From the NCBI GenBank assembly GCA_017522105.1, contig JAFXAA010000026.1, forward strand, positions 1 through 35,081: 35,081 nucleotides of DNA, read 5' to 3'. The translations under genes were made by a program, and so were the position numbers. Source of the stretch: Bacteroidales bacterium (lineage in GTDB: Bacteria; Bacteroidota; Bacteroidia; Bacteroidales; P3). The notes under the pieces were generated by a model that was not told the origin of the DNA, ran no database searches, and worked only from the letters and a program-made list of their open reading frames with translations. This document shows, piece after piece, positions 3,749 to 35,081 of the stretch (position 1 is its first letter; each line of letters begins with the position of its first letter).

Positions 3749-3862
3749 ACGGCTGTTCTACGGTTGTTTAACGGTTGTTCTACGGTATTTCTTCAGTCAA
3801 AACCGTAGAACAACCGTTAAACAACCGTAGAACAACCGTAGAACAGCCGTAGGGGCTCCGTA
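3749..3862. repeat. 11-bp modular hairpin element A
   Basis: The left arm (3749-3786) is three 11-mers of type acggttgttct or acggttgttta plus acggt. The right arm (3802-3850) is the reverse complement with one extra 11-mer. The inner 27 bp pair perfectly, and 38 bp pair with one mismatch. The 15-nt loop holds ttcttcagtcaaa (3789-3801), a 13-mer also present at the centre of the element at 34992-35081. The right flank gccgtaggggctccgta (3846-3862) is the reverse complement of the head of that element. The hairpin lies between two divergent promoters (rnfA and the DUF4954 gene), so it is not placed as a terminator. The rest of 3617-4041 holds only the two promoters. Confidence 0.9.
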
Positions 3863-4041: not shown

Positions 4042-5856
4042 ATGAGCGTTATCGACAAGAAGAAAAATATGGAGACCCGCTACAGAACCCTCACGGCGGC
4101 CGAGATAGAGCAGCTGGAGCGCCAAGGCAACAGCGCAGAGGACTGGTCGGCGGTGAAAGTGGCCGAGGGGTTCACGGCGGCCTGCCTGCACGGCAACTGC
4201 TTCGACGGCGAGGTGCGCCTCGGCGCCATGGGGGCCGGCAGGGTGACCGACGGCGGACTGACGCTGCACGAGGGCATATACAACTCCATGCTGGCCGACA
4301 CCACTGTGGGCGACCACCCGGCCATACACAACGTGCACATGCTCAGCGGCTACACCATCGGCAACAACGTGCTGCTGTTCAACATCGACGAGATGACCTG
4401 CACGGCCGACCCCCGGACGGTGGCATGGCTGGAGCCGATGAACGAAAACGGCGGCCGCCGCCTGCTGCCCTTCAGCGGCATGACCGTGGGCGACGCCTAT
4501 CTCTGGGCGCGCTACCGCGGCCGCAAACAGCTGATGGAGCGGCTGGAGCAGATGACATACTCCGCCCTGGCCACCGCCGGGGGCCGCTACGGCACGGTGG
4601 GCGACAGCTGTGTGGTCAAGAACACCAAGACCATACGCAACGTCAGCCTGCGCTCCTGCGAGGCCGACCCCACGGTGGTGGACGGCTGCATAGCGCTCTG
4701 CGACGGCGTGGCGGGCTACGGCTGCACGCTGGAGCACGGCGTCATCGCAGCGCGCTTCCTGCTGGGCGAGCACGTGCACCTGGAGTTCGGCCTGCGCCTC
4801 AACGACACCGTGGTGGGCGACAACAGCACCCTGGCGCGCTGTGAGGTGGGCAACAGCATCATCTTCCCCGCCCACGAGCAGCACCACAACAACTCGTTCC
4901 TCATAGCCGGCCTCGTCATGGGGCAGAGCAATGTGGCCGCCGGCTGCACCATAGGCAGCAACCACAACAGCCGCACCGCCGACGGCGAGCTGGCCGCAGG
5001 GCGCGGCTTCTGGCCGGGCCTCTGCTGCTCGTTCAAGCACTCAAGCCGCTTTGCCTCCTACTGTCTGGTGGCCAAGGCCGACTATCCGGCGGAGCTGGAC
5101 ATAAGGCTGCCCTTTGCACTGGTCAGCAACAACGTGTCGAAAGACCAGCTGGAGGTGATGCCCGCCTACTGGTGGATGTACAACATGTACGCCATTGACC
5201 GCAACAGCCGCAAGTTCCTGCAGCGCGACAGGCGGGTGGTGAAGGCGCAGCATGTGGAGTTCGACCCGCTGGCGCCGGACACCGCCGAGGAGCTGCTGCA
5301 CGGCATGGAGCTGCTGCGCGGCTGGATCAAGGCGTCGCCCGACGGCACCGTCTACGCCGACGGCATGGAGAACAGCAAACGCCGCACCGTCATCCTCAAG
5401 GCACAAGAGGGGCTGAAAGCATACAAGGACATGCTGGTGTATTACGCCATGAAGAATCTGGAAGCGGGGAGCGGAGAGCGGAAAGCGGAAAGCGGAGAGT
5501 GGCAGTGGGTGAACATCGGCGGACAGTTGGTTGAACGCCATGATATGGAGCAGCTGATAGCCGACGTGGAGAGCGGTGTGCTGGACAGCTGGGATGCCGT
5601 CCACGGGCGTTTCGACGCCCTCTGGGCCGCCTATCCCGCCCGGCGGCAGGCCCATGCCTACGGGGTGCTATGCAGGCTCGCCGGCGTGGAAAAACTGGAC
5701 GACGCGCTGTGGCAATACTACCGGCAGCGCTATGCCGACATACAGAAATACATAGAAGAACAGAAGGCGGCCAGCCGTCGCAAGGACGACGTCAACCCCT
5801 ACCGCAGCATGACCTACTGGGACGCCGCCGAGCGCGACGCCGTCCACCAAGGCTGA
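4042..5856 (+). CDS. DUF4954 family protein (left-handed beta-helix, function unknown)
   Basis: A 604-residue cytoplasmic protein (no signal peptide) resembling the DUF4954 family, which is widespread in Bacteroidota. Residues about 60-360 show hexapeptide-like turns (for example VGDHPAIHNV, IGNNVLLFN, VVGDNSTLARCEVG) that suggest a left-handed beta-helix like sugar-nucleotide or acyl transferases; no catalytic residues can be assigned with confidence. The C-terminal third is helical. ATG at 4069 (METRYRTLTAAEI) is an alternative start with an A-rich leader and may be the true one. A heptamer array at 5461-5502 inserts the stretch EAGSGERKAESGEW in frame near residues 474-487, just before the conserved-looking VNIGGQLV segment. 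The gene converges on yifB with only 29 bp between stops. Confidence 0.8.
   Translation: MSVIDKKKNMETRYRTLTAAEIEQLERQGNSAEDWSAVKVAEGFTAACLHGNCFDGEVRLGAMGAGRVTDGGLTLHEGIYNSMLADTTVGDHPAIHNVHMLSGYTIGNNVLLFNIDEMTCTADPRTVAWLEPMNENGGRRLLPFSGMTVGDAYLWARYRGRKQLMERLEQMTYSALATAGGRYGTVGDSCVVKNTKTIRNVSLRSCEADPTVVDGCIALCDGVAGYGCTLEHGVIAARFLLGEHVHLEFGLRLNDTVVGDNSTLARCEVGNSIIFPAHEQHHNNSFLIAGLVMGQSNVAAGCTIGSNHNSRTADGELAAGRGFWPGLCCSFKHSSRFASYCLVAKADYPAELDIRLPFALVSNNVSKDQLEVMPAYWWMYNMYAIDRNSRKFLQRDRRVVKAQHVEFDPLAPDTAEELLHGMELLRGWIKASPDGTVYADGMENSKRRTVILKAQEGLKAYKDMLVYYAMKNLEAGSGERKAESGEWQWVNIGGQLVERHDMEQLIADVESGVLDSWDAVHGRFDALWAAYPARRQAHAYGVLCRLAGVEKLDDALWQYYRQRYADIQKYIEEQKAASRRKDDVNPYRSMTYWDAAERDAVHQG
5461..5502 (+). 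repeat. In-frame array of six heptamers
   Basis: Six 7-mers follow one another: gaagcgg, ggagcgg, agagcgg, aaagcgg, aaagcgg, agagtgg. They encode the SGERKAESGEW stretch of the DUF4954 protein. Related arrays sit in dapB (21144-21185) and the ABC ATPase gene (23371-23405), each purine-rich on the coding strand. Confidence 0.85.
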
Positions 5857-20776: not shown

Positions 20777-20902
20777 ACGGAGCCTGTACGGCTGTTCTAC
20801 GGTTGTTTAACGGTTGTTCTACGGTTGTTTAACGGTTTAAACCGTAGAACAACCGTAGAACAACCGTTAAACAACCGTAGAACAGCCGTAGGAGGGCCGT
20901 AG
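20777..20902. repeat. 11-bp modular palindrome element B
   Basis: Positions 20788-20838 and 20839-20889 are two 51-nt arms with no spacer, meeting at tttaaa. Each arm is four 11-mers (acggctgttct, acggttgttta, acggttgttct and a fourth) plus acggttt. The arms are complementary except for two bases in the fourth unit. The left flank acggagcctgtacggc (20777-20792) is a variant of the head of element C, and two more degenerate units (gccgtaggagg, gccgtagggga) continue rightward. Like element A, it lies between divergent genes (ribBA and dapB). The rest of 20608-21040 contains only the two promoter boxes. Confidence 0.9.
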
Positions 20903-21040: not shown

Positions 21041-21736
21041 ATGAAGATAGCACTGATAGGATACGGAAAGATGGGGCACGCCATCGAGGCGATGGCCGCC
21101 CGCAGGGGGCACACGGTGACCTGCATTGTGGACCGCGGGGCAGAGAGCGGTGAGTGGAGAGTGGTGAGCGGCGAGTGGAAAGCGGAGGAAATCGACGTGG
21201 CCATCGAGTTCACCACGCCGGCGACGGCGGTGGCCAACATACGGCGCTGCTGGGCGGCGGGGCTGCCGGTGGTGTGCGGCACCACGGGCTGGGACGCCGA
21301 GCGCGCGGCGGTGGAGGCCGAATGCCGCCAAGGAGGCCACACCCTACTGGCCTCCAGCAACTTCAGCATCGGCATGAACATCATGTTCGCCCTCAACGAG
21401 AGGCTGGCGGAGCTGATGCGCGGCCGCACGGACTACAGCTGCTCCATCACGGAGACGCACCACGTGCACAAGCTCGACGCCCCGAGCGGCACGGCGCTGA
21501 CGCTGCAGCGGCAGATAGTGGAGCGCGGCGGACGGAGCGCCAACGAGATACCGATAGAGTCGATACGCGAGGGCGAGGTGCCCGGAACGCACACTGTGGT
21601 ATACGACAGCAAGATAGACACCCTGACGCTGACCCACGAGGCCCACAGCCGCGAGGGGCTGGCCCTCGGGGCCCTGCTGGCGGCGGAGTACGTGGCAGGG
21701 AAGAAGGGGGTGTTCACGATGAAAGACATGCTTTGA
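21041..21736 (+). CDS. dapB: 4-hydroxy-tetrahydrodipicolinate reductase
   Basis: Reduces the cyclic intermediate of the lysine/diaminopimelate pathway, needed for lysine and peptidoglycan. The 231-residue protein is on the short side for DapB. The dinucleotide motif GYGKMG is at residues 7-12, and the catalytic segment ETHHVHKLDAPSGTAL has His140 and Lys144 in the expected places. A heptamer array at 21144-21185 encodes ESGEWRVVSGEWKAE at about residues 35-49, in the variable loop between the second strand of the Rossmann fold and the EFTTP segment. It is followed 19 bp later by a FecCD-type permease gene, probably in the same transcript though not in the same pathway. Confidence 0.94.
   Translation: MKIALIGYGKMGHAIEAMAARRGHTVTCIVDRGAESGEWRVVSGEWKAEEIDVAIEFTTPATAVANIRRCWAAGLPVVCGTTGWDAERAAVEAECRQGGHTLLASSNFSIGMNIMFALNERLAELMRGRTDYSCSITETHHVHKLDAPSGTALTLQRQIVERGGRSANEIPIESIREGEVPGTHTVVYDSKIDTLTLTHEAHSREGLALGALLAAEYVAGKKGVFTMKDML
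21144..21185 (+). repeat. In-frame array of six heptamers in dapB
   Basis: The units are agagcgg, tgagtgg, agagtgg, tgagcgg, cgagtgg, aaagcgg. They encode two near-copies of SGEW within DapB. The type and orientation match the arrays in the DUF4954 gene and the ABC ATPase gene. Confidence 0.88.
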
Positions 21737-21755
21737 GAGTTATGAGTTTTGAGTT

Positions 21756-22718
21756 ATGAAGAACAGGGTCAATCCGTGGGTGATGGCGCTGCTGGCGGTG
21801 CTGCTGCTGGCGGCCATGGCAGGCAGCTGCCTGCTGGGTGCGGCAGACATCAAGGCGGCGGACATCATGCAGTCGCCCATCTTCTGGAGCCTGCGCCTGC
21901 CGCGGGTGCTGATGAGCGTGCTGGTGGGCGCTGTGCTGAGCGTGTGCGGTGCGGCCTACCAGAGCATCTTCCGCAACCCGCTGACGGACCCCTACGTGCT
22001 GGGCGTCAGCAGCGGAGCCTCGCTGGGTGCCGCCGTGGCCATACTGCTGGGCCTGGAGGCCGCGGTATGGGGCGTGGGCGGAATGGCCTTGGCGGCGGCG
22101 CTGGCCACGGTGTGGCTCATCTACCGCATAGCCTCCATAGGCAACCGCATGCACACCACCACGCTGCTGCTCACCGGCGTGTGCCTGACGCTGCTCATCT
22201 CGGCCCTCATCTCGTTCCTCATGGTGCTGAACCAGGAGAAGATGGACAGCATCATCTTCTGGACCATGGGGAGCTTCGGCAGCTCGGCGTGGAGCGACGT
22301 GGCGGTGATGGCGCCGGTGGCGGTGCTGGGCATCGGCGTGGTGCTGTGGCACGGGCGCGACCTCAACCTGCTGCTGGCGGGCAGCGAGGCAGCACGGAGC
22401 ATGGGGTGCGAGGTGGAGAAGGTGAAGCGCGTGCTGCTGCTGGCCACGACGCTGATGGTGGCCTTCGCCGTGAGCTCGTGCGGCGTGATAGGCTTCGTGG
22501 GCCTCATAGTGCCGCACGCCGTGCGCCTGGTGGCAGGCCCCGACAACCGGCGCGTGGTACCCTACGCGATGCTCTGCGGCGCGCTGTTCGTGCTGGTGTG
22601 CGACACCCTGGCGCGCTACCTGCTGCGCCCCAGCGAACTGCCCGTGGGCTCGCTGACCTCCATGGTGGGGGCACCGCTGTTCATATACCTGCTGTACAGG
22701 AACAAGAAGGGGTATTGA
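21756..22718 (+). CDS. FecCD/BtuC-family ABC importer permease
   Basis: Inner-membrane permease of a type II importer for iron-siderophore, heme or cobalamin. The 320-residue protein has about ten predicted helices. Family landmarks are visible: LRLPRVLMSVLVGAVLSVCGAAYQSIFRNPLTDPYVLG in pattern (residues about 47-85), the GISSGAS-like VSSGASLG, and CGVIGFVGLIVPHAVR near 245-260, the cytoplasmic coupling region. The partner ATPase gene follows after 111 bp. No substrate-binding lipoprotein is encoded nearby. The substrate cannot be told from sequence; iron is favoured by the general context only. Confidence 0.9.
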   Translation: MKNRVNPWVMALLAVLLLAAMAGSCLLGAADIKAADIMQSPIFWSLRLPRVLMSVLVGAVLSVCGAAYQSIFRNPLTDPYVLGVSSGASLGAAVAILLGLEAAVWGVGGMALAAALATVWLIYRIASIGNRMHTTTLLLTGVCLTLLISALISFLMVLNQEKMDSIIFWTMGSFGSSAWSDVAVMAPVAVLGIGVVLWHGRDLNLLLAGSEAARSMGCEVEKVKRVLLLATTLMVAFAVSSCGVIGFVGLIVPHAVRLVAGPDNRRVVPYAMLCGALFVLVCDTLARYLLRPSELPVGSLTSMVGAPLFIYLLYRNKKGY

Positions 22719-22735: not shown

Positions 22736-22801
22736 AGTCAAAGAGTCAAAAGGGTCAAAGGGTCAAAAGGGTCAAAGAGTCAAAGGGTCAAAGGGTCAAA
22801 A
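22736..22801. repeat. Tandem array of eight gtcaaag-type units
   Basis: Eight consecutive units of 8 or 9 bp (agtcaaag, agtcaaaag, ggtcaaag and variants) fill most of the gap between permease and ATPase genes. The unit length differs from the 7-bp and 11-bp families. All three plus-strand frames pass without a stop for most of the array. Confidence 0.88.
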
Positions 22802-22829
22802 AGCGAAAAAAGCCAAGACGTCAAGACAG

Positions 22830-34991: not shown

Positions 34992-35081
34992 TACGGAGCC
35001 CCTACGGCCGTTCTTCAGTAGTTCTTCAGTAGTTCTTCAGTGTTTGACTGAAGAACTACTGAAGAACTACTGAAGAACGGC
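34992..35081. repeat. 11-bp modular hairpin element C
   Basis: Head tacggagcccctacggc (34992-35008) leads into a perfect inverted repeat: arms 35007-35041 and 35047-35081, 35 bp each, with a 5-nt loop (gtttg). The arms are gccg followed by iterated 11-mers of type ttcttcagtag. The head occurs as reverse complement in element A (3846-3862), and the centre (35043-35055) is the reverse complement of the 13-mer in the loop of element A. The window ends exactly where the right arm ends, so a right-hand flank, if present, is not visible. Confidence 0.92.

Follow-up and report, generated by a model that had tools for sequence, protein, structure and literature searches.

Heptanucleotide repeat arrays in frame within dapB and other protein genes of a Bacteroidales bacterium

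How can a tandem repeat with a unit of seven nucleotides reside inside the gene of a biosynthetic enzyme, and where would such a repeat come from? The question is raised by dapB, encoding 4-hydroxy-tetrahydrodipicolinate reductase, in a Bacteroidales bacterium (GenBank assembly GCA_017522105.1, here G000). The gene lies in a stretch of 35,081 nucleotides (contig JAFXAA010000026.1, hereafter the window; contig 25 in our numbering of a 2.28 Mb draft genome of 38 contigs), and harbours in frame an array of about six heptamers. We consider it probable, at roughly 0.6, that this insert is one member of a genome-wide set of heptamer arrays, produced by local slippage or unequal copying and filtered by stop codons, by reading frame and by the tolerance of protein loops. 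A preliminary description of the window, made from its letters alone, had noticed the array and proposed that a repeat indifferent to reading frame could colonise protein genes.

The host gene occupies positions 21041 to 21736 of the forward strand and encodes a complete DapB protein of 231 amino acids, with both Pfam domains above cut-off (DapB_N, 6.1e-16; DapB_C, 4.3e-38) and with relatives in the PDB. The array extends from 21140 to 21187 on the same strand (48 bp, score 18 in our custom period-7 scan) and is made of AGAGTGG/AGAGCGG-type units, two of which begin with T. Tandem Repeats Finder (TRF), run on the window, reports a period-7 array of 6.4 copies at 21143-21187, in agreement with the six heptamers first described in this genuine dapB. 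The units follow each other head to tail beyond chance, as in heptanucleotide simple sequence repeats, and are translated in the host frame to AESGEWRVVSGEWKAE. The preliminary description stated that the forward frames contain no stop. This holds for a pure AGAGTGG unit and has to be corrected for the actual array: because two units begin with T, each of the other two forward frames contains a TGA codon (21151 and 21165), and the DapB frame alone is open. The reverse strand is open in all three frames, as had been claimed.

Comparison with other DapB sequences indicates that the segment is variable. In the closest relatives compared, the draft genomes G023 (82% identity) and G008 (80%), dapB is 27 bp shorter at the place of the array, a net difference of nine codons. 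The preliminary description had named conservation of these residues in DapB of distant relatives as a point that would tell against its idea; such conservation was not found, and the stretch is absent from both these relatives. We examined 110 dapB loci from overlapping collections, of which 108 could be parsed. The loop measures usually 17 or 21 residues, once 18 and once 22; a loop of 26 residues occurs only in the window, in L032/L189 (the same genome twice) and in L188, where it bears arrays of its own, of AGTGGAA or AGTGGAG type. The placement of the array in a variable loop is thus borne out, with lengths from 17 to 26 residues. Because both groups have array-free relatives, the species pattern suggests that two separate gains of an array in this loop are likely. 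The AlphaFold model of the window protein has a mean predicted local distance difference test (pLDDT) score of 94.5, its lowest block being residues 31-40 (mean 73), and agrees with solved DapB structures. In this prediction, the insert forms a loop, containing a short strand (39-44), that directly follows strand 25-32, and the fold would remain intact.

The array in dapB is not isolated. Our census covered 1,165,410 bp (51% of the genome) on 14 of the 38 contigs, one of them partial; these are exactly the contigs with AGTGG-type matches, a choice that may favour this unit and its in-gene share. The 965 genes of the sample (88% coding) were called by a custom codon-usage script and not by a standard tool. 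With a strict threshold and periods of 4 to 20, we detected 81 arrays of period 7 and 138 of period 11, with at most 10 for each other period, whereas three codon-preserving shuffles scored in the same way gave no array. Looser scoring at a threshold of 14 yielded 158 period-7 arrays, including one intergenic array kept despite its homopolymer consensus TTTTTTT, as compared to none in one codon-preserving shuffle; single shuffles gave none at a threshold of 16 and one at 18, against 100 real arrays at the latter. Among these 158 arrays, 66 lie in coding sequences (43 genes), 61 are intergenic and 31 span gene ends. The preliminary description had called for SGEWKAE-like heptapeptides in other proteins, and the 66 coding arrays supply them. 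Their orientation relative to the host gene is nearly even (34 same, 32 opposite). No period-11 array was found in called genes of the sampled half of the genome (0/138). The heptamers fall into 50 distinct classes, so that several unit families coexist in one genome, and the scheme AGTKDWN fits these families.

Many of the host genes encode housekeeping enzymes. When array hosts were scanned against NCBIfam, 16 of 20 matched at E <= 1e-10. Those above the curated cut-off of their model are TilS, RimO, RsmH, PrmC, AlaRS, MtaB, DnaG and PurL; best matches designate the others as a YegS-like lipid kinase, an MsbA-like ABC transporter, an RlmB-like methylase, a LolC/E-like protein, a heptosyltransferase-like protein, a Nudix-like protein, a CCA-adding enzyme and a MurD-like ligase.

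Whether an array lies in a gene follows the stop codons of its unit. Units without a stop on either strand (AGTGGAG, AGTGGAA, AGCGGAA and kin) are found 39 times in coding sequences and 6 times between genes, as opposed to 2 and 21 for units closed on both strands (AGTTAAG, GGTTTAA, AGTTATG and kin; Fisher 3e-10). Of 25 coding arrays with a unit open on a single strand, 19 have the open orientation. The six exceptions include four AATGAAG arrays; two of these (C15 82638 and C8 13162) have an AATTAAG unit and one (C7 5054) has AACGAAG units, and therefore the host frame stays open. Across 64 coding arrays no stop occurs in the host frame, as the gene calls impose, and the two remaining frames contain 29 and 28. 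The preliminary interpretation is supported in that unit type and orientation are filtered by stop codons. The share of arrays open on both strands that lies in coding sequences (39/45) matches the coding share of the sample (0.88; p = 0.82) and exceeds what is expected if two thirds were lost by frameshift (0.71; p = 0.02). In this sample, a stop-free array meets hardly any barrier in genes, a figure to which the choice of contigs may contribute. As a separate observation, an identical 31-base mixed array, with AATTAAG as its second unit, occurs in two genes (L146:13162-13192 and L121:2638-2668) and encodes NEELRMKNEEL in both.

We then looked at orthologous sites in G023 and G008. From 52 arrays at least 45 residues away from either gene end, 40 segments were drawn, and 26 sites were hand-picked from these for conserved-looking hosts; 50 of the 52 site-by-relative comparisons could be scored, one lacking an ortholog and one an anchor. 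A period-7 array (score >= 12) was present in the same loop of the relative in 23 of 50 comparisons, covering 16 of the 26 sites. As background, random 60-base windows were drawn from these loci without excluding the array sites, and 75 of 2220 reach this score. At the remaining 10 sites neither relative reaches it. Arrays are common to species at sites 9, 30 and 42, whereas the unit family clearly differs from that of the relatives at six sites (44, 54, 101, 140, 142 and 156); at sites 51 and 106 the arrays of another type in the relatives score only 12-13, and these were left outside the six. The flanks of the arrays also differ between species. At sites 54 and 140 length is kept and, by eye, register as well. 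For instance, AlaRS (site 54) reads AGTTGAG-AACGGAA-AGCGGAA-AGTGGAA here versus AGTTGAG-AGTTAAG-GATTATG-AGTTAAG, equal in length and register. PrmC (site 44) displays three solutions in three species: antisense AATGTTG, sense AGTTAAG, and about fifteen AGTGGTC-type units that add 63 bp. At site 24, an array in this genome faces ordinary sequence of equal length in both relatives, which either rewriting in this genome or decay in both relatives would explain. The idea of a repeat colonising protein genes thus stands as regards the presence of arrays in dozens of genes; it needs amendment in that several sites look rewritten in place and not simply invaded.

These observations can be accommodated by a process acting locally. 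Both in coding and in non-coding DNA, arrays would grow, shrink and change sequence by slippage or by unequal copying from one unit to its neighbours; slippage as the motor is an inference, as is any account of how an array first arises within a gene. In this lineage, an array would survive in a gene only in an orientation and phase that bring no stop into the host frame, and would be tolerated where the extra residues form a surface loop, a position modelled for DapB only. It would then persist as a loop segment that changes fast and in which one unit family can give way to another in situ. Most likely such arrays confer no benefit to the cell and would be mutational by-products or selfish repeats; some exchange between arrays may also occur, and a mobile element may account for a part of them. 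Local copying leads one to expect that neighbouring units resemble each other, and they are more alike than in shuffled order, both in intergenic arrays (lag 1, z 10.7; lag 2, z 8.1) and in coding arrays (lag 1, z 5.6; lag 2, z 4.0).

Several results weigh against slippage as the whole explanation. To begin with, the similarity at lag 1 is partly built into array detection. Mixed-unit 25-mers are shared between different loci in 20 pairs, as compared to a mean of 8.6 and a maximum of 18 in 200 shuffles; this hints at copying or exchange between loci, while independent slippage can give like patterns. When the 50 classes are aligned to one register, they reach 5.61 bits, above the maximum of 4.78 in 40 unit shuffles, with the reservation that classes descended from one another are not independent. 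Slippage alone does not predict such a common scheme of units. Nor does simple slippage give the opposite strand on which, by eye, the unit of the relatives lies in PrmC, or the register shift of one base seen by eye at site 156. The preliminary description had also noted that multiples of three units (21 bp) keep the downstream frame. As a general rule for gains, such steps are not supported: 6 of 25 distinct length differences are multiples of seven residues (p = 0.14), with replaced flanks as a confounding factor, and the gain in dapB itself is 27 bp. For lone arrays, that of dapB included, the count is 6 of 14 (p = 0.009), in a subset chosen afterwards.

The last point against a general process concerns other genomes. 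Period 7 is also the top period in stretches from two array-rich genomes that belong to other Bacteroidales families. Arrays in genes amount there to 1 of 30 and 1 of 26, a contrast confounded by unit type as the units listed there (AGTTAAG/AGTTGAG and AGTGGCT) carry stops on one or both strands. An order-wide habit of in-gene arrays is weakened as a candidate by this contrast. The pattern (AGTKRNN)x4 matches 131 of 294 genomes across Bacteroidales and, within the genus, 51 of 59; since the reversed control pattern also matches many genomes, AGTGA-type units reading alike backwards, these counts are a rough guide. In one set of loci of the genus, 32 array rows were examined and 18 scored as coding, with some arrays appearing twice. 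The nearest named relatives, among the best 80 of 488 matches, are uncultured Bacteroidales metagenome-assembled genomes, many of them from rumen. Heptamers are thus general in the order, and residence inside genes may be peculiar to this lineage or to its units.

A bolder reading, which we regard as possible though distinctly less probable than local slippage, is a frame-indifferent heptamer family that spreads between loci and rewrites the loops of essential enzymes in place, by repeat conversion and not by point mutation. Units might then be replaced sometimes in register at constant length and sometimes from the other strand.

A mobile palindromic element is an unlikely source for most arrays, yet it fits a subset. 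In Rickettsia and Wolbachia, selfish inserts are known in frame (PMC10969869, PMC2996958), and these reports describe Rickettsia palindromic elements (RPE) as palindromes of about 150 bp with a conserved peptide, inserted in frame into housekeeping genes at non-structured segments. By analogy, a unit of array, core and inverted array (about 60-110 bp) would move, and lone arrays would be solo ends or remnants. Among array neighbours less than 50 bp apart, 15 of 17 are inverted with the canonical strand first, none is in the reverse order and two are on the same strand; eight of the 15 inverted pairs lie wholly in coding sequences, including those of PurL, the CCA-adding enzyme and MtaB. A core beginning GGCTGACGC lies between the arrays of several inverted pairs. 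Its full 36-base form (up to three mismatches) has six copies in this genome and none in the 58 other genomes of the genus searched. The inverted pairs in PurL and in the CCA-adding enzyme, and an array with core in RimO, are in frame and absent from both relatives. This paired, core-bearing subset behaves like RPE. The arrays at large share with RPE the in-frame insertion into unrelated protein genes; compared by description with these sources, they are without the conserved 100-150 bp palindrome, the dapB array being lone and 48 bp long and a subset being paired. The fit ends there: the eight inverted coding pairs represent 16 of 66 coding arrays only, exact GGCTGACGC lies within 45 bp of an array in just 12 of 40 occurrences, and the cores vary in length and sequence. 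Core and inverted partner were both looked for at the dapB array and neither was found, so that a palindromic element was rejected as the origin of this array, which stands outside the subset. Independently, one gene of contig C15 without NCBIfam match (E <= 1e-10) contains two in-frame array-core-array copies, L121:2245-2335 and L121:2577-2668.

That the repeat peptides are selected parts of their proteins, such as flexible or charged loops or oligomer contacts, is improbable. The recurrence of arrays in the same loop in several species, and in the same DapB loop in two different clades, would fit this idea. However, sequence, strand and length differ between close species, both gene orientations occur in similar numbers, and at 10 of 26 sites neither relative has a scoring array. 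We give very little credit to a telomerase-like reverse transcriptase that would add array ends at DNA breaks, followed by joining into the order plus array, core, minus array: the fixed order of the close pairs could reflect 3'-end addition on both sides of a break, but a single genome holds widely differing unit families. Two matches to the reverse transcriptase family PF00078 are present in G000 itself, whereas none was found in the array-rich drafts G023, G008, G002 and G007 (98, 88, 98 and 79% complete), and such an enzyme was dismissed as a required motor. Finally, an artefact of assembly or gene calling, conceivable for a draft genome with some contigs ending in arrays and with genes from a custom script, is hardly credible, as alignments of the hosts to orthologs from two other assemblies stay in a single frame before and after the array and arrays are common to species at three sites.

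The window contains further repeats. A second in-frame heptamer array, of AGCGGAA/AGCGGAG type, was detected by TRF and by our scan at 5454-5502 on the forward strand, inside the open reading frame 4042-5856. It is open in all six frames, and at its place G023 and G008 have an AGTGGCC/AGTGGTC-type array of equal length (score 14). Upstream of the first called gene (starting at 618) lies a TCCACTG-type heptamer array at 418-451 (425-451 in TRF; score 17 in our scan), for which no strand is assigned. TRF also reports a short GAGTTAT array on the forward strand at 21737-21759, directly 3' of the dapB stop codon and reaching the start of the following called gene (21756). Both strands of the related unit AGTTATG contain stops. 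Tandem repeats of 11 bases, of AACCGTAGAAC and GTTCTTCAGTA types, form long intergenic palindromes at 3749-3852, 20787-20891 and 35010-35078, which are possibly terminator-like hairpins. An intergenic array of 8-base units (GTCAAAGG type) is located at 22737-22824. Several draft contigs start inside heptamer arrays (C26, C27 and C5 of G000, and G010:C1:1-320), and the longest arrays are therefore probably missing from these draft assemblies.

Heptamer repeats are known from other bacteria. Cyanobacterial short tandemly repeated repetitive (STRR) sequences occur as several heptamer families per genome and have been reported inside the RNase P RNA gene; to our knowledge, they are not common as in-frame inserts in protein genes. 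The arrays described here resemble them in the number of families per genome and differ in their host, which belongs to Bacteroidales and not to Cyanobacteria. For Calothrix, three tandem heptanucleotides are named in PMC4692102. The same paper describes G-rich heptamer repeats of Xanthomonas and Nostoc as dispersed, with variable units and 2 to 26 copies; our arrays share this dispersion and variability, and set against them the genome studied here has stop-free units in genes at the coding share. As summarised in PMC4679880, Mrazek et al. (2007) found that, among long simple repeats, heptanucleotides are the most frequent class in most prokaryotes; slippage has been proposed as their origin, and coding regions are described as likeliest to contain repeats whose units are multiples of three. 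The period of seven is common to both cases, whereas here 66 of 158 heptamer arrays lie in genes. TAACTGA direct repeats are described in the same paper from Beggiatoaceae, some Cyanobacteria and five Bacteroidetes; most lie between genes, a short distance upstream of start codons, and stop codons are named as a probable major limit on coding use. This heptamer, read on the reverse strand as AGTTATC, fits the common scheme found here; it differs in being mostly intergenic and in that one unit was studied. Among the open-literature matches listed, no description of heptamer arrays in Bacteroidales genes was found.

Tandem repeats with units not divisible by three are expected outside genes, and this lineage has them in dozens of genes, many encoding housekeeping enzymes. 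At one and the same loop, different repeats are found in close species, and if the reading proposed here is correct, repeat turnover would be a real source of loop change. The stop-codon content of a unit would then predict whether a repeat can live in genes, and predicted proteins from such genomes would carry segments born from repeats that are able to mislead alignment and annotation.
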